This document shows, one piece after another, positions 7,301 to 38,806 of a stretch of 38,806 nt of DNA. The DNA is from Ectocarpus siliculosus (taxonomy: Eukaryota; Sar; Phaeophyceae; Ectocarpales; Ectocarpaceae), in contig FN649752.1 in NCBI GenBank assembly GCA_000310025.1, positions 1,289,987 to 1,328,792 of the forward strand, written 5' to 3'. The notes under the pieces were generated by a model. That model made no database searches, had not been told where the DNA came from, and worked only from the letters and a program-made list of their open reading frames with translations. Position 1 is the first letter of the stretch. Every line of letters begins with the position of its first letter. A program made the position numbers and the translations under genes.

Positions 7301-10300
7301 GGGCAGTTTATAGTTGTGGTGCGATTCCATCTGTGGCATTGAACCACATCGATTATCGGGCACCTTTTTGGAAGGCTCGAGAACTACTGTCCAAGCCTCT
7401 TCGATTGTCTTCAGGAACTGTGTTAATTGCGAGGAGCACTTGTCGGGCACGCTAAAACCGTTTTTTGTGTTTCAGCGAATGAATCGAGATACTGTGGCAG
7501 CGTGGGATGCCTTGTTTGTCGATGTGCGTATGATGGGAAGCTTAACCTTTGACGATTCTAGACAGCAGCCTGGGATGCCTTGTTTATCGCCGTGTCAAAT
7601 GTGCATATGATGGGAAGCTTAACCTTTGACGTTGACGGTGGTTTATTTTCCGCGACGAACATTGTCTTGGAACCACTGACAGCGCCTCCCTCTTTGTGCA
7701 ACTCTCCTGTCCTGGGCCAATCGAACGGTCCCATTGACAGCTCGATAATTTGACGGGGCTCAATCGACCTGAGTGCCTCGCACGACACAAGGCTCGCCAA
7801 CGGTGTTCGAAGTCCAACGGCTACGACGATCAGGTGAGCAGCGAGACCGAGATTTTCAGAAATTTTCAGAGACGATTGCACCCAAGCGTTGGAGTCTTTT
7901 GAATGGCTGGCTTGCTTGGTCCCATTTTGGTTCCGGTTGGTTCTCCAGTCTGGAGCAATTTGTGAGAATGTTGGTGTTGTTCGAGTCCTGTGACCTTAGG
8001 CCCATGCCGACGCATGAACACCGTTTGCGGTTCTGGCTCTGCGTGGTTTTAAGCGTGGGCACGTTGCTCGTCGTGGCGTTGTTATACATTGTCATTCTGG
8101 CTCACTAGGTCGTGGGTGCGTGATTGGCAGCAGTCTGTTGCGGCGGATTGTTTTTACTTCATCTTCTCTTGTTGATTTGAGAAAATGAAATATGGGGGCG
8201 ATGATGAAGAAAACATACATAATATACGCTATTCATAATCTACGGTTCCCTTTTGGGAACTTTGTGATGAATACTCCTTCACTTGCTGAGCCCCCTTTTT
8301 TCGTTCTCTCTCTAGTGATCATTTGCGTCACCTGGACCGCTGTGGTCGAGGTGCCTGTTGGCTGCTTTCGGTTCTCCCTTCGTAGCACAGCAATTTTTAT
8401 TGTCCTTTGAGTTTTCCTACATGCAAGGCTTTTCTGGCACCGATTGTCTTTTGTTTTTTTGCTTGCTGTCGGTGCCAATTATTCTTTTCCCGAATAATCT
8501 GTTGCTTTGTGGCATCGTTGCAAGATTCCCAATCGATGGAAAAAGGGTTTTTTTGTGCTCTTGTGACACAGCAAAAGCAGCCGGTTCTCTTTGCCCAAAC
8601 TAAAACTTGCATGAATGAGACAGATAAACTGGTACCCTACCCCGCCCACTCGGAGATGATAGTGTCTGATGTCCACAGGATTGGAAGCGCGTGTGTCGAC
8701 CGTTTGTATGTTTGGTGAGGCCAGAGCGCCCATTGCTACATCTACTGACCCCCAGCACTGATTTCAGCGTCTTGCGGCATGTAAACCTCGCGCCTGACTT
8801 GTCTGTATTTTTTTGTCTCCGTGGAAAAGTGTGACCTCTTGTGTCTACCGTTGTGTACACTCTGCCAAGAAACGTAGCGCGAACGCCACTCTCCTGGCTC
8901 CCTGCTCCTCCCCCTAAATACAGCCCGACCATCGCCGGTTCTCCCTCTCCCTGTGTGATTCGTTTCGGGCACTGAACGATCGGCTGCAGACTGCGCCAGC
9001 GCACGAGCTATCGGGGTTGTACGAGTGTCTTGGGGGCTGCGGTGAAGTGTACTGCTCGCCCCGCTGCAGATCGGAGCACTGGGAACGGTGTCACCGCCTC
9101 CTTTGCGTCGGCCCCGTGCCGGACGAGGAGGCACAAAGCCACCCGCTTGTTGAGTTTCGGGTGAGCAAGTTTCGCCGCCTTCTGCGGGAACCCGTGTGTT
9201 GCCGTTTGGGTGGGTGCGTGCCCGCGTGTTTTCTGTTGCACGTGATAGAGTATGGCATCACATGGGTTGAAGAAACAAGAAACATGTTTTGTGTACGGAA
9301 TATTTTGAGAAAAGTCTTGAGAGACCGTGAAGATAGTGAATATGGGGGCCAGTTTTCCTGTGCACGTATGATAGCATACTGCTGTCTGTCTTGGGTGCGA
9401 CTCCTACAGTACGACCACGGGGGGCGAGCTTCATGGCCTTCGATGGCTGTTATGGTATCAGATTGGTTGGCTGGGTTCCCGCCTTGGAGAACGTTCCGAG
9501 GATTGTTCCTCCTGTGGCCTTCACCGCATAGTAGGCGACGCTAGCAACCTTCGTGAATTTGACTTTCCTCCCCCCCCCCGCGTCAACAACACAGATACAC
9601 GCGATGCAAACGAACGAAATATTTCTCCTGGTGGGAGAGGTGATGGCGCAGATCGCGACCGCGTTTACCGAGAAGGTGCGGGAGAAGCCCGGCGCCGACG
9701 GCAGCGGCGGAGATCTCGACGTTGACGACGAAATTTCCGCCGCCCGTGCCCCTTTCGCGGACTTCGTTCAAGAGCCCTGGTGGGACGTTGCCGTCGCTAG
9801 GGACGGCCGGGACAAAACAGATGGGTCATCGCCGCCACCCTGCACACCCGACGACGGCTGTAACGGTGACGAAAACGTCTGCGCCGCCGCCGCCGCTCTC
9901 CCGGGCACCCTGCGAGCCCTGTGTGGAGAGTCATCGGCGCTGCTGCGCAGGGCCTTCGCCCGTTCCGTGGGACCCCTGCCGGCACCCCTGGAGCAGGCCC
10001 TCACGGCCGAGATGTTCGGCAGGGTGGTCGGCATGTTCGAGCAGAACAACGTCGGCATCCGCGCGCCGTCCCCGATCCCAGAGGTGCTTCGGGAACTGCT
10101 CTCTGCGTCGAGCGAGGGTGATAGTGATGATGCTACGAGAGGAATCTCGCGGGAGGTGCTGGGGGAGGTAGCGCAGCTGGTGGGCGAAGTGATGGACGAC
10201 GAGTATGAGGAAGAGGAGGGGGAGGATGAGGATGAGGGTGATCTACCGATGATCTGTCGCGTGTCGCCCAGAACATTTGTTGCTGGAGATGATGCGTTAG

Positions 10301-10725
10301 AAGGGTCAGGGATGGGCCCAGGGGAGGCCGAGACGATACTCAAGGTTGCGATGGACGGTGGCGGTGAGGAGGGGGAGGAGGTCGTGTCGTTGTTCCCCCC
10401 ACTCGACGGCACCGCCCTGTACCCCCTCATCTGTTGCATGAACCACTCGTGTCGGCCCAACTGCCTCGTGCGCTACCCGGGGAGAAGGCGAGAAAAGAAG
10501 GCTACGGCGGACCCTGAAAAGGCGGCGGGTGCGGGTGCCGGGAGCGCTGATCCCCTGGTTGCGCAACTGGTGCTTTTGGAAGACGTGCCCGCCGGGGAGG
10601 AGCTGACACAGAGCTACGTCACCAGAGAAATGGGTCTTGTCGAGAGAAGGGAGGCACTAGAGGATTACGGTTTCTTTTGCACGTGCCCCCGCTGCTTGGA
10701 AGAGGAAGCCATGGCGTCATCGTGA
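4119..10725 (+). CDS. SET-MYND lysine methyltransferase, SMYD5/ATXR2 type
   Basis: Four exons: 4119-4255, 6869-6959, 8990-9160 and 9595-10725 (stop TGA at 10723). All phases fit and the protein is about 509 aa. The split SET N-part is GRGRGLFASADMKAGATILIE-RPLVA across the first junction. The MYND zinc ligands are C63/C66, C89/C93, C98/C102 and H111/C115. The second SET part has NHSCRPN at about 416, GEELTQSY at about 467 and the post-SET CTCPRC at about 495. The stretch GMFEQNNVGIRAPSP and the HPL segment after the MYND finger resemble SMYD5 and plant ATXR2 rather than SMYD1-4. The family transfers methyl groups from S-adenosylmethionine to lysine in histones or ribosomal proteins; the substrate here is unknown. 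An acidic run (about 334-349) interrupts the region between the MYND finger and the catalytic SET part. The exon 3 acceptor (CTGCAG at 8984-8989) has a weak pyrimidine tract and is the least certain border. Confidence 0.85.
4256..6868 (+). other. SET-MYND gene intron 1 (2.6 kb)
   Basis: The donor is GAGAG|GTGCGCG and the acceptor GAAACCAG at 6861-6868, phase 2. It contains a (CAG)10 run at 4320-4349 close to the donor, and otherwise unique, stop-rich sequence. I see no nested gene. Confidence 0.75.
4320..4349 (+). repeat. (CAG)10 microsatellite
   Basis: Ten CAG units follow CCGCTGCCG, about 65 bp downstream of the first donor of the SET-MYND gene. It would read as polyglutamine in one frame but lies inside the inferred intron, because the ER|PLVA junction skips it. 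Confidence 0.9.
6960..8989 (+). other. SET-MYND gene intron 2 (2.0 kb)
   Basis: The donor is TCGCAG|GTGAATG at 6960, phase 0. It contains a diverged tandem duplication at 7497-7631. No family motif is seen in its open frames. An extra small exon cannot be excluded, but the flanking exons join in frame without one. Confidence 0.65.
7497..7631 (+). repeat. Diverged tandem duplication in intron
   Basis: The copy at 7497-7554 and the copy at 7565-7631 share GGGATGCCTTGTTT and ATGATGGGAAGCTTAACC. The second copy has a small insertion in the middle. They are separated by about 10 bp. No coding role is apparent. Confidence 0.8.
9161..9594 (+). other. SET-MYND gene intron 3
   Basis: The donor is TTTCGG|GTGAGCAAG at 9161 and the acceptor CAACACAG at 9587-9594, preceded by a C-rich tract. 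Phase is 0 and the junction reads HPLVEFR-IHAMQTNEIF, as expected for this family. Confidence 0.8.
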
Positions 10726-15108: not shown

Positions 15109-17806
15109 TCAGTACCCCCCGGGTACGAAGGCCGGGGCATCGGCGTTTAGGTCGGGGTCGGCGCAAATGTCCTGGATGTCCACGTCGAGGGACGGGTCCG
15201 CCAGAATCTTCGACTGCCCGGGGCTCAAGAACGGGGACACCGTCGAGCTGCTGCTGCCGCCGTTCTGCCTCGGCGTGAAATCTGCGATTCCGATTCTATT
15301 CTGCTTTGGCGTGAAATCTCCTCCTCCGCTCCCGGTTCCGCCTCCAAACAGCCCGTTGCCGCCGCCGCCGACAACACGGGAAGGGCCTAGCGGGGGGGTC
15401 ACTGCGGACGGCTGGTGGTGGTGCTGGTGGTGGTGGTTGTGATGGCCGGTGAACAGGGGAGGCGGCGGCGGCGGCGGCGGCGGCGGCGTGGAGCTCAGCG
15501 CGTTGGCGAGGTCGCACAGGTACTCCGGGGAGTCTGGCGGGAACATCGGAGGAGCGGGGAGGGAGGGCATCGCCGTTACCAGCGAGGGCGGCGGCGGTGG
15601 CCCCACGCCCGCCCCCGAACCCCCGCCATTGATGACGGCCGCCACCGTCGTCGCCGTTCCCCTGGCTGGTGGTGGCGGGGCTTCCATAGACCACGGGCCT
15701 TGCCCCGCCACAAGCGGATGGCCACCGCGACCGTGCTGCTGCTGGTCCCGCTGCTGGGGCTGATGATGTCGCCCCTCTGACCAACCCCGGACGTTGTTGC
15801 TCAGAGGCTGCTGGGAGGGGGGGACGACGCTAGCCCCGCCGGTGCCGGTGCCGACACCACGTGCTTGGCGGGCCGAGGCGCCCGCTTGGCCGTGGTAGTT
15901 CAGAGCCGGAGACGCCCGATGATGCGGCGGAACCCCGTTCGCCGACGGGCCGTGCTGCGGCACGCCGTTCGCCCTTCCACCACCGCCGGCCACCCCACCG
16001 CCGCCATTGCCGCGCCCCATGAGCGCCTTGCTGGCGCCGTTCGCCCTCTGGGCACGCCTGCTGCTGCGCTGGTTGTTCCCCGAGCCCCCGCGTTCCCCGG
16101 CTCTCGCTGCCTCCGCCATCGTAGCTCCAGCGGCATCCCGAGAAGCGGGACTTCCGCCGCCGGCGCCCGTCCCACCCCTCCCCCGTCCCCCGAACCCCCC
16201 AAGGCCCTCCCGTCCGGTAGCGGCGGCGGCGGCGCCTTCTGCCCTGCCACCGCCCCCGCGCCCCGCCCCGATCGCCGCCNNNNNNNNNNNNNNNNNNNNN
16301 NNNNNNNNNNNNNNNNNNNNNNNNNNNNNNNNNNNNNNNNNNNNNNNNNNNNNNNNNNNNNNNNNNNNNNNNNNNNNNNCCGTCAGAAATCCGCCACCGC
16401 GAGGACCGTAGGCGGTTCGACCACCCCCGGGCCCCCCGCCCCGCCCCCCTCGCGCGCGGCTGCCGTTACCGCCACGTGAGGGACCCCTTCCTGTGCCGCT
16501 GCCGCCTCCGCCGCCGCGGCCGCTGTTGCCACCGCGGGGACCGCCGGCGGGGGGCGGGCCGTTCTCTTCGCGGTCTTTCCAGAGCTCCTGGTAGTGCCTG
16601 TCGAGGCGTTCGTAGTCGCCGGTGTCGTGGGTTATCGCCGTCCCGACGCGCCCGAACACGCCTCCCTGGGGGTCCATCTTTGGGCGGGGCCTGGAGTCCG
16701 AGGCGGTGTTGCACCACCTGTTGCGGAAATAGCGATGGGGGGGGGAGGGGGAGGGTCAAGCCGAGGCCGCTACAAATACCTGATTGAACGGTCTCTTGTG
16801 TGCACCCGGGAGGTGCGCGTAAATGTACTGGGCGGGGTAGAGGCTGGTGACGTCTGGCGGGTGGGACGGCAGCAACACGTGTTCCGAGCACGTGCGGCCA
16901 CGACTTGGTGTTCAGAACGTCCCGGATAAGCACAATCATGTTGCCATGAAGGACCAGGAAATACACATGTTGAAAAAACATAACAATTTTGGATACTATA
17001 TATTGTAAGAAAAAAAACAAAAACAGAAGTGATATCCATTACCCGTGCTCGAGAACACCAAACTCTGCAGCACTGGCGGCGCATCATTAGCGGACCCCCA
17101 GAACATTCCTCAACGTCTCTCCTCAGCATCTCTTTTTGATAGACCCGCGGGCCCGCGGCGGAAAGAGTCAGAACTCGCCACCGCCCGGTGGGACAAAAAA
17201 ACCAAGCCCTCACCTGAGATCCCTGTCGTACGGCACCTCCTCTAGGCTCAACGAGACCACACCGCCCTCGACCCCTCCGTTGGCCTGCTCCGTCGCCGCC
17301 AAGAACTCGCTCTCCAGCATTCCGGGGTGAACTTTCCGCACAGCGCCACCGCCGAAGCCGTTACCGGCAACTGGCGCCGGCGCCGGGACTGCCGTCAGTA
17401 CCACCGCCGCCTTAACGTCGCCACCACCGGCCCCGCCCTTTCTCCGACCGCCTCCATTCTTGCCTTTGGAAACCTGGCTGCTGCTGCCGCCGCTGCGTAC
17501 GGCAGTGGGTGTTGTGGACACCTTATGCGAGCGCCCCGCGGCCGCCGCTGCCGCCGCCGCGGTTCCTGCTGGTCCTGGCGCTGTTGCTGTATTCTCGGCC
17601 CAGATCGTTCTGCGCCCGCCGCCTCGCCCACCGCCGCCGCCACCGCCGCGCCCACCGCCATCGCCGGCCGCTGCCTTTCCGCCGCTACCGGAGGCGTGTT
17701 GCAGCAGGGTCGTTGGCTGTCGAGCAGCCGGCGTTGCCGCAGGCGTTGCTGCGTGTCCACCTCTTCGGCGACGTCTGCCGGAGTGTGCGCCAGACCCGTT
17801 GCTGGC
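15109..17806 (-). CDS. RGG/Pro-rich protein with C-terminal PAM2-like motif (5' end unresolved, gap inside)
   Basis: Three inferred exons on the minus strand: 17806-17214, 16903-16780 and 16717-15109. Exon 1 to exon 2 joins in phase 2 and gives EEVPYDRDL-SRGRTCSEHV, then DVTSLYPAQYIYAHLPGAHK. The last exon begins near GGVFGRVGTAITHDTGDYER, is followed by long RGG/GGR, Pro, His and Gln tracts and two DFTPxQN repeats, and ends LNADAPAFVPGGY before the stop. RGG tracts suggest RNA binding, and the ending fits the PAM2 consensus that binds the MLLE domain of poly(A)-binding protein, so a role in mRNA metabolism is inferred. Problems: exon 2 ends in phase 0 but the RGG frame needs phase 2 at the 16717 acceptor; the 100-N gap makes frame continuity across it unproven; and no start codon is identified upstream of 17806, where an in-frame stop precedes a plausible acceptor. 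Globular family unrecognised. Confidence 0.6.
15112..15150 (-). other. PAM2-like motif at protein C-terminus
   Basis: The last 13 codons encode LNADAPAFVPGGY. The PAM2 consensus has the core LNxxAxxFxP, and here L-N, A, F and P are all at the correct spacing. The motif normally docks on the MLLE domain of poly(A)-binding protein through the Leu and Phe side chains (family knowledge). An acidic stretch (SLDVDIQDICADPD) lies just before it, as is common for PAM2 sites. Confidence 0.65.
16280..16379. other. Assembly gap of exactly 100 N
   Basis: Exactly 100 unknown bases interrupt the GC-rich glycine/arginine-coding part of the PAM2 protein gene. A round 100 is typically a placeholder of unknown true length, and the flanking GGC repeats explain the failed assembly. 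Confidence 0.95.
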
Positions 17807-21106: not shown

Positions 21107-24100
21107 GTGAGAGTAGACGCTGCAGACAACTAGAATATTGTACGTGTAGACCAGTCGACTGACCTCAGCAGAGTGCAAGAGCACACAGCAGGTAGGCTAT
21201 GGACCAAACCACCGTCCCAAGCGCCAATGCACAGGCAGTATTCAGTGTGTGGATCATCAAAACATGAGTCTCAGCCATGAGATTTTGCTCTACCTTATTG
21301 TATAACTGAGAGGTTTGTTGAGTTTTGGACCAAGGAGGAGATCAGCATCCATGTGCCTAAAACCGACTGATCGGCCAACTTGGATTGGCGACGATATTAT
21401 TTGCCGCAGCTTCAAGATAACACACCCTCACACAGTAGAACGTCACCGGTACAAAGCTATAGCTGACATCTGTGGGGATGAAAGGAGAGAGTCACGTACC
21501 ATTCACAATAGGGATCGTTTTCTCCATTCAAGGACGTTGGAGAGTTATTTCAGCTAGACTACATGTACATAGTAGTCTACCTAATAAAGATACGGTATGT
21601 ACGTACCCACCGTAGCATATGCAACCTACAGCAGGCCGCGGTAAATGCCGTCCCAACAACGCTACAATAACTTCTCCATTGAAAATTGGTCGAGTTCTTC
21701 CTGTGACATGGCCGGCTGTGCACGCACCCCAAACGCGATCCATCTGGAGGTTCATCTCATTCCTCCACACGGACTTTCCTGCTGCCATGGTTCGTCTTTG
21801 GAAGGGATGAGGTATCCGGGGATGGTGGCCCAGGGGGGCGTATCGGGCACAGCATGGTTTTAGCTGGAAACGACAGCCGCGTGATCATGTTCGGTGGGAG
21901 GGACAACGAGATCGTGCGGCAGCACATCCCTAGGACATACGAGGTGGGCAAACTCCGATCACACTCCAGTAAAATGCGGTCAGTCCAACAGTCTACATTT
22001 GCTGCCTTAAACTGCTGTATGCTGTGGTTAGTGTTTTCTCAAGTGTAAGCAGGCGTGCCTGTACGATGCAACATCAGGTACGCACTTTTTGTTGCGCTGT
22101 AGACATGCATCCGTACTGACATACAGCCTCCTGTCTCCACGAAGTGCTGTGTTGGTCAAACTCCGGCGCGCTGCACTCGGATAGCGGACCGTTTCGCTCA
22201 TGAGAGACGCCCTCGTTGCTTTGGTGCTCGCGGAAACCGCGTACACGTTCATGCTGTGGCTGTCCGTATGCTGACGACACGTGCTTGTTCGGGTAACCTT
22301 TGCATTTGTTTCAAAACCCCGCCCGCACCCGTCTTGCTATCGGAGCTCTTCTATTGCATTAGACTGGCGGCAGATTTTTTTAATGACGAGCGGCAGCAAG
22401 CTATTTTGATGACGACGAGACATCAATACATGACAGGTCACTCGACAGGACGGCACTCTAGAGTTCGTGAGCTACGACGAGAAAATAGTCCTGGAGTGTC
22501 AGGAAAACGCGTTGGAGAACAACGTTACCTTCGATAGCTCCGCCAGCAGCAGCGTTTCCATCAGCAGCAACGGAAGCACCAACAGCACCGGGGAGACTTG
22601 TAGCACTACCGTGGCCGTGGGGTTGTACTACAATGACGTGTGGGAGTACGATCTCAATTGTACAAGGTGGGCCCTCGTCCTGTGTAGTGTCGGGATGAAG
22701 CGGATGTATGCGCTGCGTTGAGCGTCTCCCGTGTTCTATCAGAGTGAGAGCACGCCCCGCATGGACCAACGCGTGCCCCTCTGCTAAGCACCACTACCAC
22801 GGTTACCGATAGCTTGTTGTGGCTTCGACTTCGACGACGTGTCTGGCATAGCGATTTAGCCTTCAGAGCATCAGTCTTGATTCGTTCGCCCATATTACCG
22901 CACAACCTTGTGGTGATTGATTCAACACGCATCAACACGAACTGATGTGTTGGTCGGGAACAAACCGTGCAGGTACGCGGATGGACCATGCGAAGGCACC
23001 GGTTGGAATGTCCTCCACGAGGGAGCCAGGCACGGCGCGTGCGAGTACGTCAGGGGGACGGAGATATGCGGGGTAAGGCGAAGCACTGGAGTCAATCAGC
23101 GCTTCATGCATGGCAGAAATGTGGCGGTGCAATATCACGTACGCGTGCCCGGGTGCAGCAGGAGTGGTGATGTTGCGAGCCCCCTCCGCCCTCGCCAGAA
23201 CCTCTTCTTCTGCAGTACCCCTTCCTTCTGACGACCCCTCTACCATGTTGGGCGCTCTGTCTGTCTCTCTTTCTCCCTCTCTCTCTCGCTCTCTCTCTTT
23301 CTGTCTCTCTGTCTCTTTCTCCCTCTCCCTCTTCGTCTCTCCGTCTCCCCGTCTCTCTCCCTCTCTCTTTCTTTGGTCCCTTTCTTCATTTCTGGTCCAA
23401 ATATTTCCCTCTTGGGTGCGTTCCACGCAATCATTGCGTGCGTAGGTCGGGGCTCGCCCGCCGCAATCGCCTTGCCGCCGGAAAAGGAACCCTCGTGTCA
23501 GGCGACACGACAAACGTCAACTCACCATCCGCGGTGACCCCGACCTCGCTGACTGCGGCGGTACTTGCTCCTGCCCCCCCCCTGCTCGTCCGAAAATGGT
23601 GGACTATCTCGCCTTCCACCTCCACTAGCTAATCTATCGTTTTCCCCCCCGCCGCGCCAACGGCGACAGGTCCCAAGCGAGCGGTGGAGGCAGGGAGCGG
23701 CCATGTTCGACGACAACACGATGATCGTCTACGGCGGGTACAGCCAGCGGTGCGGGGACTACTGCGACGACGTTTGGTCGTTCGACCTGCGGGACAACTC
23801 TTGGATGGAAATTTATCCGTTGGGCCACTTCGCCGAAGGTTTGACGTGTTCCGAGCTGTGTGATCGGCAAAGATATACATCCGTTGAGACGTTTTGCTGG
23901 AGGCGGAGATTTGAACAAGTGTGATTACCCCCAATGCGGCAGCCAAGCTGCGTCCAGCATCTGTTTGGGAGATTGGATGAGAGGTCATTTGGGAGAGCAC
24001 TCCGAGCCACACCTCAACCCTGCTTCTGTTTGGGTACCTTAGTGTTTGCACCTGTGGTAGACGGAATATGAAATGTCGCTAGACCGCCAGTTGCGTTTCG

Positions 24101-27100: not shown

Positions 27101-30100
27101 CCCACGCATGAACCACATGATGGTCATGGTCGACCACATCCTCGTCGTATTCGGGGGATTCTACTTCAACCACCACTACGACGACACGTGGTTCTTCAAC
27201 ACCACTACCAGGCGAGGGAGAGGGAGAGAGAGAGGCAGAGAGAGACAGAGAGAGGCAGAGAGAGACAGAGAGAGAGAGTAATACACCCGGCGTCTTTTTC
27301 TCGAAGACCCCCGCTCGTACCTTGCCGTCGCCGTTTGTTTGCCGTCCGGCTCGTGCCGCGTACACACACACATTAGCAACGGAGGATGTGTCTTCTTTGT
27401 GGCCTTGCGTTGATGTGGTATACTTGCGCGGTACGTAGGGCATTTTTGGCGGAAGCGTGTGACAGAAATGTTCACAAACTACTTGTGCGCAACGCGCCTG
27501 ACCGTGATCGGTTGTCATCGCTAGAACTACTGCTGACGCTGCTGCTGCTTATTGTGGGCACGCGTGGCCGTACGCGCACGCATTTGTTTCTACTTTTTTT
27601 TCCTCACCGGGTAGGCATGACAGTCGTGTTTAGTTTACCTTTCCTCGCAGTCACATCTATCTAAAGGCTGCGTTCTATGATCTATGATCTACTTGGTGGT
27701 TGTTCTGGAGTTGTTCGTGATAGATCGACCACAGGAAGCCTGCATGCCCGTCTTCTTCGTTCGCGTTCGGTGTGTGTGGTTTGCTAGCACCACTTCCGGC
27801 AAATCACCGGTCATTGTTTCCATTGGAGACCCTTGGTGGCATTCTGTTGTCTTTCGTTTCCGTTCGGCTTGCGACGTTTCCGGCAGCCTTCTCTGACAAT
27901 TCCTGCGCCCTTTGTTCGCTTGCATACTGCGGTCGTCGTCGTCGTCATCGCGGCCGTTTTTTGTACTTTCTTTGTGTGGCCAATTGACGGGTGCAGCTAC
28001 TGGCTGGAGAAATCCAGCCACGTACACGCGGTGTACCCGGCCAACTGCACCGACGACCTTCTCTACATCGAAGAGAATAACTGCACCGAGCTTCTCTGGC
28101 CCAACGTATGCGAAAAGCAATTTGTCTCTGTTTCTATCAACCTACCAACGCTGAATTTCGATTACTAGCTAACGGTTGAATACAATACCGGGTGTAGCGC
28201 AAGCTTCACAAGATCAACTTGCAGCAACTAGCGATTGTGCGGACGTAGGACTTGCAAGTTTTCAGCAGCTACTGTGGCAGACAAAAACTGTACCGGCTAC
28301 CTGGTGAGCACTAGTAGCTAGAACCATCCCTTCGACATCCAAGCCCGAAAGAACGCCACCTAACTGTAGACTACTGGTTACGTCGGCGCCGGAGTCTTTT
28401 TCTTTTATAACGGTCGTGTCGGTAATGTTCCCGCCATGAAAATACCGCCCTGGTGGGCGGTACCCGGCAAGCCGCCGGTTTACCGCCGGTTTACCGCCAT
28501 CTCTTTGCTTGACCGCCTCCTCCGCCAAAGTCGTTTCGTACCTCAAAAAAACGAAAGAATCATACCGCCGTACGTACAGCATTTCCGAGGAAACAACCAC
28601 CGCCACATACATACAACGGAATCGCCTTTTGGACTTAATCATCACCACGTACATGTTGTACACATGTCGCCTTTTGGCCTTCCTACCAGGATCTCGAAAG
28701 GGACCAGGACTCCCCCTGGGACGTCCTCCCTTACGCGGAGCAGCCAAACTACTACCCCGACGGAGAGTTCGCGAGATACTACGGCGTTCATACCAAGGGA
28801 GACATAGGATCCAGGTGACGACTCCCCACGCGCACGTGCACGCACACACACACACCACGCCCTCACGGGGCTCCAAATCATGCGCCTTTGGAAGGCTTTC
28901 CGTTTTGAGACACTGAGACTGGCGTCTTTTTCGTTGCCCAGCCTCTTATTGTGGCGCGTCGATTCTAACAATAAATGCGAACACGAACGCACGCAAACAC
29001 GCGAAAGCAAGCACACAGGAGGTATTACACGGTTCTCGTCGCGACTTCGGTGCATCTAGAGGAGAAGAGCAGGGAGAATCGTTGGGCGTGCAACCGTAGC
29101 ACATGGCGTCTTGTGCTACTGTATGCATATGCATAGGAAGAGGAAGGAACTATTTTGCTACTCCCCGTGGCGTTGACGTGGAGAGGCCGGGATGCAGATT
29201 GCTCCAGCTTTCGTTCTCGGCGGATAATCTAGACGAGCGAAACCTCCCGTTGTTTGATGTATTCTTGAGAGCCCATCGGCGGTCTGTCTTCAATCATTCG
29301 ACGGTATATTGCCCCTCAGATGAAATGTTGCTGTTGTTGCTGCTGGTTTCATTTGTTGTGTTTGCTGCTGCTGATGGTTTGTTTGGTTGCTGATGCAGCC
29401 ATTGTTATTCTCAATAACCGCGTCTCTCCAATCCCAAACACGCCCCCTCTCTCCTGAAAAACAATCGACATTTCCATCCAAACGGAAACCGACAACAGAG
29501 AAGCACTGTTCTCGGTCGGGTCGCCCCTACCCCCCTACATGGCCACCGCCCCGAGGCAGCACGTGCGGCGTTACGTCCACGCCTTTAATGACACCCACAG
29601 CGCGGTCCTGTACGAGTGGTGCACCAGCGTCCTGGGGGAGCCCACGAGGTACGCATCGCAAACACGCACAATGCTGTAGGATGCATGAGATGCCACAACC
29701 CCCCTTGACCTGTTTTCAAGGCTCGACTCCTGTGCAGAAAGAAGACAGCAGGAGAGAGGCGAGCTGTATCCGTCGATTCACTTGTACATGACCACTCTGA
29801 CCGGTTGTCAAACAACTATTTACAGCAATAATTAAACATCGGGTTCGTTGAATCGAATTTTTCCTCCCCCGTGTGGTAACGAACCCTTCCTGATTGGACG
29901 AGCGGTTCGACAATCGTCGTTCATGGGACCTGTTGATTGACATCTTACCACACCTCCTCCGCTATATCTAGGAAACTCATGGTAGACCTATTCTGACACT
30001 TATCCTTCGGCACTAATTCGCCTTGTCCTTGCACCGAAGGGACACAACTCTTGACGGTCTATTCGGACGAAGCGACAGCCCGGTCTTTGTCTCGCAGCCC

Positions 30101-33100
30101 AGGAGGCAAGCCCCCGGTTGGGACGGGTGTCGCGACAGAGAGGACGGCCGGACGGACCTTGACCAAGGTCTAATGTGGGAACACCCGGGGCACCGCTCAG
30201 ACGCCCAGGTGGGAAAACATCATGATAACCTCGTCTATGAATACACACCACGCCACCACTTTCAAAAAATCGTTGAGCAACCGTCGCTCGATATCTCGTC
30301 AGTGGGGAAACCGACAGGGAATACATAGGTTTTTGGTGTGGGTAGGGTTCTAGTTCCTAAACTTCGTGAAAATCGAACCCTTTCTCAACTTCGAAGTTCA
30401 GCAGTTCGTTGTGGTGCGATCTGTACAGCACAACAGTAAATATAAAAAAAAACTGTCCTACACACCACGCGATGAGAACTGTTTAGCGAGAAGACGCAAG
30501 GTATCAGGGCAGCCACTGAGGTACACACGGCCATCTTCCCGACAGCCCCCCCCCAAAGATAGATAGATATCTGCCAAAATTAATTTTCCTTCTGATTCCG
30601 TATGGTAATCGATGTTAGGAAAGCTGACAGTACGGTCATTATCTCATGTGGTACTACTAGCTTTGAGTGTGGTACTCTCATCTTACCTTTCATGGTGAAG
30701 ACCGTCCCTATCAATCTATGGAACCTGAAGCCCGCTTCCCCCCCTAGCTCTGCGCCACCGATGACAAAATATCTCCACACGAACCTGCCTCGTCGCCTAC
30801 GTGCCCTCCTCAAAACGTTAAATTCCCCGACCTCCTCGAAAGACAAAAAGCCGAAAATATGGTACTAGTGAGACCATCGATGGCACCTACCCGGGCGTCT
30901 CCTGTCCCATTCCTTCTGGTCTTCGCCATATCGTTGCCAAACATATTTTCATTCTCCATTCTGCTCTGTCTTGTGAAGGCGGTTGTATGTATCCCCATGC
31001 TGACTAGTTCTTGCAACCGTCCGGCGAAAAATTGTTCCGAGAGAAGGCGGTGTACTCTAAGAAGCACGCGATGGTGCTCATGTACGGGGGTCAGGGCTAC
31101 AGCGACTGGCAGACGCCTTCCGTCAACATCACCACCGCCACCTCGGTACTGAGCGACTTCTGGTGGGTGCAGCTCTGCCTAGCGGACATCTCCACTTGTT
31201 CTTCTTGCCGAGTTGACCCTAACTCTCGGATGGGAATGCGAAGCACCCCTCCCCGAAGTTGTTGAACCAGAAAGTCTTAAAACGTAACTGCTATTGATAG
31301 GATTATACCACGGCAAAAGTAGGAATACTGTGTTGTTGGGCGCTACTTGCCTTATATCGGAATGCCGGGAATCTAGGCAGGTAGTCGGTGTAATTCTACA
31401 AGATATACCCGCCCAGAAGGTATCTCAGCCCAACGGTCCAAATACCATGACACCTCTTTCCTTCCTACTCGAGTATAAAACGAGTAGTAGGATGCAAATA
31501 ACTCCCTCCTTCATGCCACCGGCCAAACACCTCGCGATGCTCTGCCTGGTTGTAACCCTCCCCCTCTCCCAACAAGGCTGTCGCGACCCCCCCACCACCT
31601 CCATCCCGACTCCCGCCCCCACCCACCTCTTTGCAGTTGCTCCAAAGCTTGTCTCCCCCCCCGCCCTCTCTCTCTCTCTCTGTCAACACACAACGAGACC
31701 CATCACCCGTCTCCGCCTCGACCATGGCTGCTTTGGTAGGGTGCTGGGGATGTCGGAGTGCGCCTCCAACTGCTCCTTCCACGGCGACTGCAGCTACGGT
31801 TCCTGCTCGTGCCACGACGGGTTCTTCGGACTGGACTGCTCCAACGCCTCCTGTCCTGGAGACTTCTGCTACTACGAGGAGACGACGCACGTCGAGGTCT
31901 GCTCCCATTGCTGCCAGGTGAGCGAGGGAGCCGTGCGGGGAGTTCTGTGCGGCACGCACACGTTACTCCATGCCACGGAAGGCACTTCGGGTTGGCGTGT
32001 TGACAATGATTTTTGAGTCATGGACATTACCCCCCCCCTTCCCTCGGGGTACAAAAAGTGCGCGAAAGAGGCCGGAATCGACACCGATAGGATAAATAGG
32101 ATAGGGACAACATTTTTGAGACACGATGCTGTGGGATGAATGCTCCCTCTCTCGAGGACGCGTGACCAATGGTCCAACAACTATATAAGGCATGCGAAAC
32201 ATAATTACGCCTCCCCTCCCGACCCTCGAGCGCGCGTAACGTTGGCTTCTTTGTTTGCTTTTTTCCTCAATGAATGTTCTTCTAAACGCAAGACGTGTTT
32301 GTCGTGTCTCTCCCGATCACAGCCCCAAAGTAAGTTCTACGTTTTCCCAGGGGTGCGGAACGCATGCTTCTGTCTCCGAAATTGTGGCCGGCGTACACCA
32401 CCCTCCTGGAGGTTGTTTTGCGAAGAACGACAAAGAATAAGCTAAAACACTCCCACACCTGTTGGTAAGCATGGCACCTCGTATTGTATGTGACAGGTCC
32501 GGGCAACAAAGTCAACAATCACCGCTATTCACACTGCACAACGTGCTGTATCTATTCAAACACTTATCTATCGTCAGCGAGCCCCTAAATGCCTTACGTT
32601 CGCTCGTTTGAAACTGTCAAACGGTGGGGACAGGATGATATTGCTAAGCTACCATATGGCATTGAGTGTGCCGGTGCCAGCGGCTTGAACCAATTTTTTG
32701 TGCCACGTTTACTTTACAAACCTCTGAGCCTCGACGTTCCCTGTGAGCGGGCCGTCACACACACAACATTCTACTGCAAAATGGACACAAACCGAATAAT
32801 ATCTAGGCCGGCTGGAGCCACCAGGACGGCGATACGTACGTAACCGAGGATGTCTCCCGCTCCGAGTGCTCGGTGACCAGCCCGGGAGAGAGCCACGGCA
32901 TCTGCGACGGGTTCGGGACGTGCCAGTGCGCGCCGCCGTTCATCGGAGACGACTGCTCCATCAAGGTACAGTGCTACAGTACAACCGCACAGGAAACTAC
33001 AATACTGTAGCTCCTTCTTCTCTGGGAGGCCCGAACCCTTTTCGGTCGAGGAAGTTGAGAATTTCGTCGGGCCCGTTGCAAGTAGAACTACATTCTTGGG

Positions 33101-36100
33101 TATTTTCGAAATAATGCGGGGTGGTTCAGCATGACTGGGAATACATGGGCGTAACGGGCGTTCTAAACGTAGCACAAATCTTCGAAACCCTGCCCTAAGC
33201 GTCGGTCGATTAATAAAAAACCGAAAATTCGAAAATGAACCCTTCGAAACCGGTTTCCCTACATAGATTTCTATCAAATTCAGTTTCTGGTCTCTTTTCG
33301 AAAAAGGTAAAGGTTCCGAGACGCTGATTTGAAACAAACTTATTTTCAAATTAGCGGGTGAAGAGGTACCTCGGGCGATTAATTAGTATCTGTAGTACGT
33401 TTTTTTTTTGTGTATTACCCTGGCACGGTGGCTTAAAGGCTGTGTAGTCGACGTTAGTCGAGGTGATGACACGTGCGAGAGGGTAGCCTGGAAGACGAGA
33501 GTCCTTCCACAGTGCGAAGAAGATGTTGAGATATTGGAAAGCTGGCGCTTAGGTGGCCAACACACACAGATATAAACCGCAGAGTATGCAGGAGCCCAGA
33601 CGGCGGCTGCTTCTCAGAGGTGACCAGTGCAGTTATGATGCCATGACAACCCGGAAGGATCAAACGAGAGAGAGTGAGAGGTACGCGATCCCTCGAGCAG
33701 AAAATACTACAGAGGTAATTCCTCTGCATACAGATGCGTTACCTACGAATAAACTGATAGAGAGAAATGCTGCTGAACATTGATTAGTGCAGGACCAATA
33801 CTTCAATAACATGCCCCCTCAATGAAAGTGGCATTAATCTAGGTGAAATAAGCAAAAGAAATAAATCCATTTGATGCGTTAACCACGAAGGATCGTACCT
33901 AGCAAAGGTGCTTGGCACTATTACATATATACATCTATGCATATGTGCTTGCAGAGTACTGATATCGTTTTCCTTCACAAACCAAAAGTGCTACACTTTC
34001 AACCTAGCCTAGGTGGCTATTTAACCAGCGATGATGCGAAGTCGAGAAGTTAACGACTGAAACAGTAAAACAACTCATTCAGGCAACAGGTGACAAGCAC
34101 ACAAACATTAATGATGACGGTGATAATTCTTGAAGATAGATGTCGTCGAAGATGTGGAAATAATCTCGTTGTTGATATCGAAAGATGACTTTGAAGATGT
34201 AGAATCTCGTTCTCGACGAAGTAGTAGCTGTAACTCGTCCAGAGATGAATTTAACAACGAAACGTTGATTTGCGAAACGGATTAGAATTAAGACGCGCCA
34301 AACACCCGATCAGGTAGTAGATGATGATAGTCCTTCTTTGCCGTTAAAGATGTCTCGTCCTTGGATGTGTTTGCCGAAGCCTCGGCCAGGGACTCCCCCA
34401 TAGTGCTGAAGGAGAACCCGACAGTGGATGGCTCGGGCCCCTGTCGTTATGCCAAGTGGGCGTTGCCGACGTTGGAAAAGTCGGTTTGGCCAGCGGACTG
34501 AAGCAGCAGCGCCAGGTTCGCAGCCAACCCTTTGAGAGCTCTTTTTGCTTGTTTCTTCCGAGTTCCTGCTGTTTTGACACTCAGCATCGCTGTCCAAAGT
34601 GGTCCTACTGGTCAAGGGTAGGCTGTGAACCTGGCGCTGCTGCTTCAGTCCGCTGGCCAAATCGACTTTTCCAACGTCGGCAGCGCCCACCTGGCATAAC
34701 GACAGGGGCCCGAGCCATCCACTGTCGGGTTCTCCTTCAGCACCATGGGAGAGTCCCTGGCCGAGGCTTCAGCAAACACATCCAAGGACGAGACATCTTT
34801 AACGGCAAAGAAGGACTATCATCATCTACTACCTGACCGGGTGTTTGGCGCGTCTTAATTCTAATCCGTTTCGCAAATCAACGTTTCGTTGTTAAATTCA
34901 TCTCTGGACGAGTTACAGCTACTACTTCGTCGAGAACGAGATTCTACATCTTCAAAGTCATCTTTCGATATCAACAACGAGATTATTTCCACATCTTCGA
35001 CGACATCTATCTTCAAGAATTATCACCGTCATCAATCTCATCAATCTGGGACTTTGGCGTGTGATGAGCTGAGGCAACCGTTCTCGGACAATATGAGAAC
35101 TAACTGCTGTTCGCCAAACAACGGTACGAAGGCAGGAGGAGCGGTTCTAGCACAGACCACGACCAGGAGCACCTCAGCGAAATACTTGCGACGATGACCT
35201 TCTCACCATGTCGAAGTGCTTCGTTGGCAAATTGTCTCAGAACTCTTCCAACTACTGACCGGAATGGATTTAAGTGCTTTCAGAGTTGAGAACCTTGCTG
35301 TTCTCCGCCAAATGACGCAAGAAAAAGCGCCCAACTATCTATCTATGTAACTGAACACCCCAACTCCCACATAACGCAGGACTGTCAGTACAATTGCTCC
35401 TTCAACGGCTGGTGCTCCGTCGAGTTCCCAGTGTCGCGGTGCATGTGCACCCCGGGGTACTACGGGGAATACTGCCAGTACCTCGAGTGCCTCAACAACT
35501 GCTCCTACCCCCACGGGACCTGCGACAGCTCCACGGGGGTATGCGCATGCGAGATGACCTACTCGCCATACAACAACACGAGGTAACAAACAATCCCAGC
35601 AAAGAACGTGGGCAGCGTTTCACAACAACTGACTCGTTTTCTGCGTGAGTTAGGCGGGGGAGATGGTTAAACACCCAGGAGTAGCTTGTTCTTGACATCT
35701 ACGGCATTGCATATCCCATGGGAATGCCTGGACGCGGAGGGAGGGTCCTTCCTTCGCTCTCGTCGCCATTGCCACGAAACGTCACCAAACACCAAAATAG
35801 AAGACCTATACAAGATGTACCCCCCCCTCCCGTCGACAGGCGAAAACCCGGCATATCGCTGTGTCCCGGCGTTGTAGGGGTACCAGGTGAATGGCCTACA
35901 TGCGAATACATTAACCCCCCCCCCTTCCCCCCTTCTCCGTCTTCTCGAAGATGCGCGATGAACGGTCGAACAACTAAGGCATGCAAAACATGGCTCCCCC
36001 CCCCTCCCCCCCCCTTCCGGCTGGAACATTCGAAGACCATGGTACGCTTGGATGGGCGAAGATTGCTCCTTCCTCGTGGCGTTCGCTGCGGCCCCGCGTT

Positions 36101-36900
36101 CCTCCCGTGCCCCGTCGATGCTAGCGGCGTTGCTGCTACCTTTAGCCGTAAGCGTGGCCCTCGTGATGATGATGGACGGCATCGGCGGCGGCAACAGGGC
36201 CACCTTCGGCGCGGGTGGTACCGCCGCTTTGGCGAGCGGCAGTCAAGCCTGTCCGGACGGCGCTGCTAGCACTACCAACGGCATTCAGGGCATTTCAGAG
36301 GCCTCTCGCGGCAGCGAGGAGGGCAGAGAAACACACGTTTTGAGGAGCGCTACAAGTGTTACCGGTGACAAAAAAAGTAGCAGCAGCTACGACTGGAGCG
36401 GGAGAGTGACAAGCACGGCGACGGCGGTGGCGGCGGCACGGAGGCCATCAAGGATCACCAATACGGCGGCGGTGGCGGAGACACGAAGTTCGCCATCATC
36501 ATCAAGGAAAACCGTAGCGGCGACGGCGACGATGACGACGGTGGTGGCGGCAGAACCAACGGGGGCGGGGGGGGGCTCTAGCGCACACTGCACAGCAGGA
36601 AGGAGATGGGAGAAGGCGACAGAAAGGTTCAAGGCAAGAAGAAGAGAGAGGCCGAGGCCGGCGAGCGAGGTGGTGGTGGTACAGAACGTGTTGTTACGGG
36701 ACATGGCGAGGAAAGCGGAGCGGAATGTGGCACGGAATATCGCAAGGAACGTGTCTGCCGGTGGGGTTAGCGGGGGGGGTTCATCGCCACTCTACGATGA
36801 TGAGGGGCCTTCTTCCACCTACTATACCGCTCACGGCTCCCAGGTGCACTGGATAATTGGCAGGATGGATGGGTCGCCGAGTTCAAGGCTGACGGCTTGA
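20904..36900 (+). CDS. Kelch-repeat and EGF-like single-pass membrane protein, about 1,210 aa
   Basis: Exons: 20904-21106, 21805-21943, 22449 (or 22437)-22666, 22973-23072, 23670-23838, 24386-24591, 25007-25137, 25765-25882, 26238-26333, about 26759-26798, 27096-27211, 27997-28105, 28690-28814, 29499-29648, 30040-30208, 31008-31162, 31740-31917, 32825-32965, 35380-35582 and 36036-36900. Every junction fits in phase except at exon 10. Residues 37-54 are hydrophobic (signal peptide or anchor). Kelch motifs follow (RVIMFGGRDNE, MIVYGGYSQR, MMVFGGHRLW, MWLHGGYTTF, LVVFGGFYFN, VLMYGGQGYS, each with a DxW partner), then EGF-like Cys-rich modules at about 750-925, a transmembrane helix at about 950-970 and a 240-aa basic, Ala/Ser/Thr-rich tail. 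NxS/T glycosylation sites are frequent. Propeller-plus-EGF ectodomains occur in attractin and MEGF8; function here is unknown, but a surface adhesion or receptor role is plausible. ATG 20904 is the first in-frame ATG. Confidence 0.8.
23249..23400 (+). repeat. CT-rich polypyrimidine tract
   Basis: About 150 bp of CTCTCT/TCTGTCTC/TCCCTC in intron 4 of the kelch-EGF gene. It is low-complexity, with no coding signal. Confidence 0.85.
25138..25764 (+). other. GC-AG intron (kelch-EGF intron 7)
   Basis: Exon 7 ends GGGCAG and the intron begins GCGAGT. The acceptor is CTTACTGAAG at 25755-25764. Phase is 2 and the junction restores WPQG-R-AGHAAVW, the start of a kelch motif. No GT donor nearby gives that frame. 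Confidence 0.75.
27212..27996 (+). other. GC-AG intron (kelch-EGF intron 11) starting in a GA microsatellite
   Basis: Exon 11 ends ACTACCAG and the intron begins GCGAGGGAGAGGG, passing directly into a GA-rich repeat (to about 27283). The acceptor is GACGGGTGCAG ending at 27996. Phase is 2 and the junction reads WFFNTT-T-S-YWLEK, the expected end of a kelch unit. The next GT lies after the repeat, about 70 bp downstream. Confidence 0.7.
27213..27283 (+). repeat. GA-rich microsatellite
   Basis: GAGAGGCAGAGAGAGACA-type units follow immediately after the exon 11 donor. It is purine-only for most of its length and gives a spurious Arg/Glu frame on the plus strand. Confidence 0.85.
28690..31162 (+). 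other. Exons 13-16 of the kelch-EGF gene: linker and last kelch motif
   Basis: Exons 13-15 encode a region with no named domain I recognise: DLERDQDSPWDVLPYAEQ, GSPLPPYMATAPRQHVRRYV and SPVFVSQPRRQAPGWDGCRD. Exon 16 returns to a kelch-like motif, KKHAMVLMYGGQGYSDW with VLSDFWV, and leads straight into the EGF modules. All junction phases agree. This may close the propeller by supplying the last blade. Confidence 0.75.
32966..35379 (+). other. Kelch-EGF intron 18 (2.4 kb)
   Basis: The donor is ATCAAG|GTACAGTG and the acceptor CATAACGCAG at 35370-35379, phase 0. It is the longest intron of this gene and is largely accounted for by the inverted repeat and its flanks. Confidence 0.8.
34112..35034. 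repeat. 923-bp inverted repeat (419-bp arms, 85-bp spacer)
   Basis: The left arm (34112-34530) and the reverse complement of the right arm (34616-35034) align end to end without gaps. I count nine mismatches (about 98% identity), eight of them transitions. The outer 197 or so bases are identical and all nine differences lie in the inner half. The outer ends read TGATGACGG and CCGTCATCA. No target duplication is seen at the flanks. It lies wholly within intron 18 of the kelch-EGF gene, so the pre-mRNA would form a long, nearly perfect hairpin. Open frames in it are mirror copies of each other and show no family motif. Confidence 0.92.
36036..36900 (+). CDS. Kelch-EGF gene last exon: membrane helix and basic tail
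   Basis: The acceptor CATTCGAAG (36027-36035) in phase 2 joins NNT-R-PWYAWMGEDCSFL, still EGF-like, followed by MLAALLLPLAVSVALVMMM, a good single-pass helix (about residues 950-970). The tail of about 240 residues is Ala/Ser/Thr/Gly-rich with a basic cluster (RRWEKATERFKARRRERPR) and repeated RNVARNIARNV. It ends TGA at 36898-36900. The tail is probably cytoplasmic if the N-terminus is a cleaved signal. Confidence 0.75.
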
Positions 36901-38601
36901 GGGTGGCGGCTGTAATTGACGCAACGACAAAAAAAACAACCGGACCGTGAACAGTCGTTCGTTGTCGTCCCCGACAGCGAACACGGCACACACACTCCGT
37001 TTGACGCTCGTCGTCGATAAGAAGAATGAATGAATGCGTTCCCTCTGTATTATTCATTGTGGATGTCGCGCTTTTTTGTTTGTGGATGACGTGAGACAGG
37101 CTCGCTCATCATTGTCGTCGAAAACAGAAAAAATAATCTCGGAACAGCAACAACCCGTCGATGAGGTAGCTCTCTCCAGCTTCTTCTTCGTAAAGAGACA
37201 TCGGTTCGTTGTCAAGCGTTCGTTGTGCTATGTTCTTCGTATTGAGTGTCTTCAACCAACCGTGATTTGGGTGCAACTCAGCAAACAGACAGGTAGTAGG
37301 TAATGTGTGCGTGGTGGTTGGTACGATGCCGCCAAACATGATCATGATGATGACCGCCACCTCGTGTACCACCACGACGAGCACACGCACGTACGTACGT
37401 ATGTACGTGCTGGGCGGCATGATGACAAAACAAATATCACGGTAAGACGGGCGGGCGTATATCGGATACCACATGCCAATGCGTGGACTTGTTACAGAGA
37501 GAGCCTGAAGAGAGCCTGTCTTGTCTGTGCCTGAAGAGAGCCTGTCTTGTCTGTCTATATGTGCATGCACGGACCACGAAGCCTGCATTTTTCCGCAGAG
37601 AGAGGCCACCAGGCAGGCCAAAAGCGCAGTAGTAGTAGTAGTAGTAGCTTGAAATGATAAAATTCTTTTTAACACAATTAATCGTCGTTGCTTCATCAGG
37701 TAGGCATTTTATCTAACTAACTAACCAATGACAAACACGCAATACAGCATATGATCGACAACGCCTGATCTTCCTCTCCCTCCCCAAGAGAAAACACCCA
37801 CCACCCACAAAAAACAAGATAATAAAGTTATCCAGACTAACAAATAATACTAACCCCCCTCGAATCAACAACAAGAATCAAACGATACGAACGAGCCATT
37901 CGCACAGTACCCCAGTACGTTGTGCTGCAAGGTATAACCAACCGTGTTGCTTCTCTACGGTACGTACGGTATAGCCAACAGAACTCCACGCACGCGCGCA
38001 CAAAAAATACCCTGTATCAGGGCGACGACATGGATACACAAACAAACCAAACGCCACGTACGAGAAAATGAACGACTATGGCCCTTTTCCTGCTACGGGA
38101 GGCATCCCCAACCAATCTGAAGTCAGCCACCGTTCGTTCACTCACCCCTGAGTGAGAGGGAACCCAACACTCCGCGTGCCAATGGCTCGAAATTAAACCA
38201 CTAACCTCTTGACAGGGAAATACGTAACTCCCCAAACGATCAAAACACAGCACGACACGTGGGAACAAACAACAGACACAATCACCCAAAATCACCCGAA
38301 AACAGAATACAAACGCACACACCAGATAGATAGATAGATGCCTGTGTTGACTTCGTGCCCTTCCAAGGAAGGTCCAAGAAGAAACAAACAACAAGCGGTC
38401 ACAAAATTTTCTGGAAGCAAGCCGATCTATCTGTCCAGAGCTGACGAACCGAAGTCTACATCGTCATAATATTCGTCATAATATACACGTTTTCGCTACT
38501 TCCGAGCCTCCTCTTTTTAAGTCAATCCGCGCCCCCCCCCCCGCCCAGGCTCTCCGACACATCTCGGAAGAACGGACACTTTGATTGTTGGTTCTCGTGA
38601 C
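36901..38601. other. Intergenic, convergent 3' ends, no supported gene
   Basis: 1.7 kb between the stop of the kelch-EGF gene and the stop of the minus-strand gene at the right edge, so 3' UTRs of both should be here. It contains ACGT/ATGT repeats (about 37388-37410), a perfect 26-bp tandem duplication (37503-37554), a TAG repeat (about 37629-37648) and GATA repeats (about 38325-38340). The open frames are short and unrecognised. Confidence 0.6.
37503..37554 (+). repeat. Perfect 26-bp tandem duplication
   Basis: A unit starting GCCTGAAGAGAGCC occurs twice in a row without mismatch (37503-37528 and 37529-37554). Confidence 0.9.
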
Positions 38602-38806
38602 CTAGGGAAGCGAGACCTCGGGCAGCGATAGTGACGTCGCCGAGTCCACCCAGAGCCCCGCCGCCCCCGCCGCGTCGGCGGCGGCGGCGACGACCTCGAA
38701 CGACGGCGAGCATGCGTAGATGGTGTCGTCCCCGAACAGGCCAACGCGAATCTTGTACATGCCGTCCTCAGAATCGGTCGGGATCACTACGTTGTAGTCT
38801 CCCTCT
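38602..38806 (-). CDS. C-terminal exon of a secreted/surface protein with a Kre9/KNH-like beta-sandwich (partial)
   Basis: It is open from the right window edge to a TAG at 38604-38602. It reads EGDYNVVIPTDSEDGMYKI then RVGLFGDDTIYACSPSFEV, followed by an Ala-rich stretch and LSLPEVSLP. The pattern GxYxVxIPxDxxxGxYxIRV...S..F.V is that of the Ser-Thr-rich Kre9/KNH-type domain found in extracellular proteins of fungi and stramenopiles. The 5' part lies outside the window and I cannot see whether the edge falls inside an exon. Codon usage is GC-rich, like the other coding exons here. Confidence 0.55.
   Translation of the reverse strand, partial: EGDYNVVIPTDSEDGMYKIRVGLFGDDTIYACSPSFEVVAAAADAAGAAGLWVDSATSLSLPEVSLP

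Follow-up and report, generated by a model that had tools for sequence, protein, structure and literature searches.

The predicted intron of a putative kelch/EGF-type gene of Ectocarpus siliculosus carries an inverted duplication of 923 bp, which we tentatively read, at just short of an even chance, as a foldback element: two copies of one transposon-like end lying head to head, held as an intronic passenger between copies of a 3-bp AAT duplication. The structure is well bounded and looks like fairly ordinary transposon-like or locally duplicated DNA. The whole stretch analysed, 38,806 nucleotides long, is called the window here, and all positions refer to it.

Extent and setting of the inverted duplication

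The duplication (34112–35034) consists of a left arm (34112–34532, plus strand) and a right arm (34614–35034, minus strand) of 421 bp each, which are 98% complementary with nine mismatches and no indels. Realignment agreed with the original prediction on the 923-bp span, the nine differences and the lack of indels, while the arms of 419 bp and the spacer of 85 bp that it had given were remeasured as 421 and 81 bp. The spacer (34533–34613) is not self-complementary overall, its score being equalled or exceeded by 243 of 500 shuffles. A repeat of 421 bp at 98% far exceeds chance; the next-longest inverted match in the window, counting pairs whose copies lie within 5 kb of each other, covers 78 aligned positions at 79%.

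The upstream exon, which ends in ...DDCSIK, has its last base at 32965 and is followed by gtacag, and the downstream EGF-like exon (predicted at 35380–35582, plus strand) opens with DCQYNC... at 35380 and is preceded by cgcag, both borders being in phase 0. Since two in-phase EGF exons with splice-type borders flank the repeat, we place it inside a predicted GT...AG intron of 2414 bp (32966–35379, plus strand, phase 0), as had been proposed from the outset. The joined exon peptide matches EGF_2 in three stretches at 1.5e-07, above the Pfam cut-off, and EGF_TEN at 7.1e-11 with 42.6 bits, under the cut-off of 65 for that family. On the plus strand, kelch-type matches were found near 23697 and 27078, with weak ones near 21830 and 24316, and the EGF-like type was matched near 31720, 32885 and 35371. 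The host thus appears to be of the kelch/EGF type, with the kelch and EGF stretches forming a putative single gene. The EGF stretches also match mastigoneme proteins weakly, in a way that is not diagnostic of lineage; the long introns and the base composition give the impression of a brown alga.

Elsewhere in the window, a SET-domain match at 9535–10725 scores 21.9 bits, just under the Pfam cut-off of 22.4, and the open frame upstream of it (8918–9544) has a weak MYND-finger match; the two possibly belong to one SMYD-like gene. A 26-bp unit stands in perfect tandem duplication at 37503–37554.

The ends are abrupt and flanked by AAT

The similarity between the arms stops abruptly, the 60-bp flanks aligning no better than shuffles do (114 of 500 as good). 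A direct repeat of 4–10 bp was searched for within about 20 bp of both ends and none was found. A shorter candidate for a target-site duplication is the triplet AAT, present flush at 34110–34112 on the left, where it shares base 34112 with the arm, and at 35034–35036 on the right, where it shares base 35034. With AAT/AAT taken as flush copies, the terminal repeats would read GATGACGG...CCGTCATC. The chance of any flush 3-mer is 4.2% and that of an ANT-type one 2.4%, a level that is optimistic because AAT was spotted only after the search for 4–10 bp had failed and with ANT duplications already in mind. As a sign of transposition, the 3-bp repeat is weak. The abrupt ends and the flush AAT/AAT are observations that add to the original prediction. 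Across the right end of the repeat, at 35030–35047, the 9-bp unit CATCAATCT occurs twice in tandem.

Outer and inner halves of the arms differ in character

The outer half of the left arm (34113–34308, plus strand) is identical to its partner and AT-rich, with 34% and 42% GC in its two 100-base steps. Its coding score is low, 88% of 430 intron windows scoring as high, and a 25-mer recurs within it at 45-bp spacing with 20 of 25 positions identical, a level that none of 100 shuffles reached (best 19). The inner half (34309–34532, read on the minus strand) carries all of the differences, is GC-richer (51–60% in the covering 100-base steps) and is mildly coding-like. In one common frame, which runs on the minus strand in the left arm and on the plus strand in the right arm, scores as high were reached by 2.8% (left) and 2.6% (right) of 427 intron windows, values that are only rough since the windows of this null overlap and may include unrecognised exons; the coding model was trained on about 1,100 codons. 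Shuffling the bases of the left arm 2000 times gave a score as high only once. Most of the signal lies in 27 codons that precede a TAA common to both arms. With the spacer added, the best score is -14.1 over 300 bases and 11% of 420 windows are as high, which is the range of ordinary intron, so that the spacer is not coding-like. Each arm may thus run from the last part of a coding stretch into a non-coding terminus, the coding signal being modest.

We also considered coding selection on the arms. In the best frame, five of the nine differences are synonymous and consecutive, when 37% are expected, and other frames reach 4/9; the frame with 5/9 has a stop codon common to both arms. These counts are not telling, and the idea was dropped.

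The differences between the arms fall, in left-arm coordinates, at 34309, 34375, 34396, 34402, 34455, 34463, 34484, 34520 and 34526. Eight of them are transitions and one is a transversion, a pattern more suggestive of ordinary mutation than of errors in sequencing. This bears on whether the inverted copy could come from the assembly or the library, through a chimeric read or a missed adapter. Inverted copies are a known type of artefact, and the assembly is scaffolded, with a run of 100 N at 16280–16379 that is probably a scaffold gap; however, one would expect an artefact to produce a near-identical copy or one bearing indels, whereas the arms differ by nine substitutions, eight of them transitions, with no indel, and they have two different flanks within a well-formed intron. 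We consider such an origin very improbable.

All nine differences are confined to the inner 224 bp, the outermost 197 bp of the arms being identical. If differences were placed uniformly, the probability of this is 0.003 for the outer end and 0.006 for either end, and that of a mismatch-free run of 197 bp anywhere in the arms is 0.03, all as post hoc tests. The mismatch positions bear out the original description of identical outer and differing inner halves, and they are compatible with the two explanations proposed for it, a recent origin or gene conversion that starts at the ends, although they demonstrate neither. On the mismatches at 34309–34526, which spare the outer 197 bp, a conversion tract, constrained termini and chance are indistinguishable.

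A possible foldback element or local inverted duplication

The abrupt ends, the flush AAT/AAT, the 25-mer repeats of the outer half and the coding-like inner half favour the foldback reading, and identical outer with differing inner halves are as expected of constrained or converted termini. The unit end would consist of an AT-rich outer terminal part and a short coding-like stretch, two copies of it being joined head to head, and the structure would have arrived in the intron by transposition or aberrant transposition. Against this stand the lack of a 4–10 bp direct repeat, of a transposase or family match and of a second copy in what was searched, as well as the modest coding signal.

A local inverted duplication, in which no transposon takes part, is nearly as likely, though we rate it clearly short of an even chance. 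Here an arm and the spacer would be the original sequence, to which snap-back or template switching at a replication fork added the inverted arm; foldback priming with template switching is a documented route to inverted duplication (PMC10622511, PMC10766183). It needs no target-site duplication of 4–10 bp and fits with arms in which Pfam recognises no known element. Another point for it is that the minus-strand frame of the left arm stays open through the spacer while that of the right arm is stopped, a very weak argument, as one of the nine differences accounts for the stop and the spacer has no coding-like score. The AAT/AAT flush at the ends and the terminal-like outer half with its 25-mer repeats speak against a local event, which by itself also leaves the mismatch-free outer 197 bp unexplained. 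The poor coding score of the spacer weakens one point each for the foldback and the local duplication, and our estimates for the two are unchanged by it.

Comparison with described elements gives a mixed picture. Tm1, a Mutator/foldback element of root-knot nematodes, has long composite inverted repeats, one element measuring 1080 bp, and 45 of the 53 complete elements covered by that account have target-site duplications of 8–10 bp (PMC3169594). Like Mutator/foldback elements, the Ectocarpus structure has long inverted repeats (421 bp) with internal short repeats, but in place of a duplication of 8–10 bp it has one of 3 bp at most. The original suggestion of a foldback element is thus supported to some degree by the flush 3-bp repeat, the abrupt ends and the terminal-like outer half, and falls short on the usual 8–10 bp target-site duplication.

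Shorter duplications of the ANT type characterise the Pangu group (PHIS/Harbinger), whose terminal inverted repeats, as described for the group, span 11–40 bp and usually begin with AG or GG (PMC4482050), and a group with ANT duplication has been reported in Ectocarpus (PMC12477816). The flush AAT/AAT could be such a duplication, with the 2.4% chance of an ANT-type match given above. The terminal repeats do not have the form described for Pangu, as they are about 420 bp long and begin with GA, and membership was rejected on that ground.

Searches for relatives of the arms

None of five arm pieces matched a Pfam family, and six-frame scans of 29000–38806 placed no Pfam family over the arms. One reading of one arm found no relative in the PDB (best E 1.6) and no match among phages by tblastn. 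Distant blastn with the arms gave no match among phages and plasmids. Among viral contigs, 21 stretches fitted a peptide pattern derived from one reading of one arm and none was confirmed, and two DNA patterns had no match there; nor did one 28-base pattern among GTDB contigs. Missing relatives say little here, because these collections comprise phages, plasmids, viral contigs and prokaryotes and include no eukaryote genomes. Within the window there is no second copy of the arms: besides each other, arms and spacer have a single match, of 28 bp at 82% (38378–38405, E 0.046). A tRNA scan was empty, and bacterial models, which are unsuited to a eukaryote, gave no terminators and two promoter-like sites against 1.1 expected.

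Predicted hairpin RNA and its possible products

As RNA, the inverted duplication is predicted to fold at -861.3 kcal/mol, compared with a mean of -278.7 for 20 shuffles, in support of the capacity for long double-stranded RNA claimed in the original prediction. Whichever its origin, the pre-mRNA could yield a dsRNA stem some 420 bp long, a possible Dicer substrate; the roles suggested originally, as a source of siRNA or a regulator of the host gene, are hypothetical. The usual miRNA precursor is far shorter than this hairpin.

Precedent for small RNAs from such a setting exists in Ectocarpus. There, 75% of miRNA loci lie inside protein-coding genes, mainly in introns; only three are not on the same strand as their host gene, and intronic hairpins are proposed as a source of such loci (PMC4513859). 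TEs give rise to around 15% of the RISC-associated small RNAs of Ectocarpus (PMC12867755). The present hairpin shares with those miRNA hairpins its place in the intron of a coding gene (PMC4513859), but it is far longer, and small RNAs from it would be hypothetical.

Together with the long, near-perfectly paired stem, these two precedents (PMC4513859, PMC12867755) are what could be said for a hairpin-siRNA or proto-miRNA locus under selection, one that is transcribed and diced and whose products regulate other genes or transposons. We regard such a locus as unlikely: a search of the intron against Rfam was empty even with E values up to 1 allowed, the window offers no clear target, and the differences between the arms give no hint of selection on the hairpin. 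With only one weak 28-bp match to arms or spacer in the window, there is no basis in the sequence for an action on the host exons that were identified.

Under the foldback reading, the host gene would be transcribed through the element, the transcript would fold into a dsRNA of about 420 bp, and Dicer may cut this stem to give siRNAs that act on related copies, in the way suggested for Mu killer of maize; the spliced host mRNA would be little affected. Mu killer is an inverted duplication of one MuDR end, each terminal repeat carrying part of the adjoining gene; a hairpin RNA was proposed for it, and the data in that same account favour short antisense transcripts over a large hairpin (PMC3440606). 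As in Mu killer, both terminal repeats of the Ectocarpus structure read as the same element end, inverted (PMC3440606). Unlike Mu killer, which is about 4 kb, it is 0.9 kb long, is intronic and has no transposase that we could find, and any silencing by it would be hypothetical. A natural silencer of this kind, in which the inverted duplication of a transposon end in an expressed gene's intron is transcribed from the host promoter and its hairpin siRNAs silence the parent transposon genome-wide, seems to us improbable, somewhat more so than the selected small-RNA locus.

If siRNAs are made from the hairpin, the locus would permit a clear-cut test, confined to one site, of how transposon silencing begins in a eukaryote or of how intronic inverted duplications give rise to hairpin small-RNA genes.
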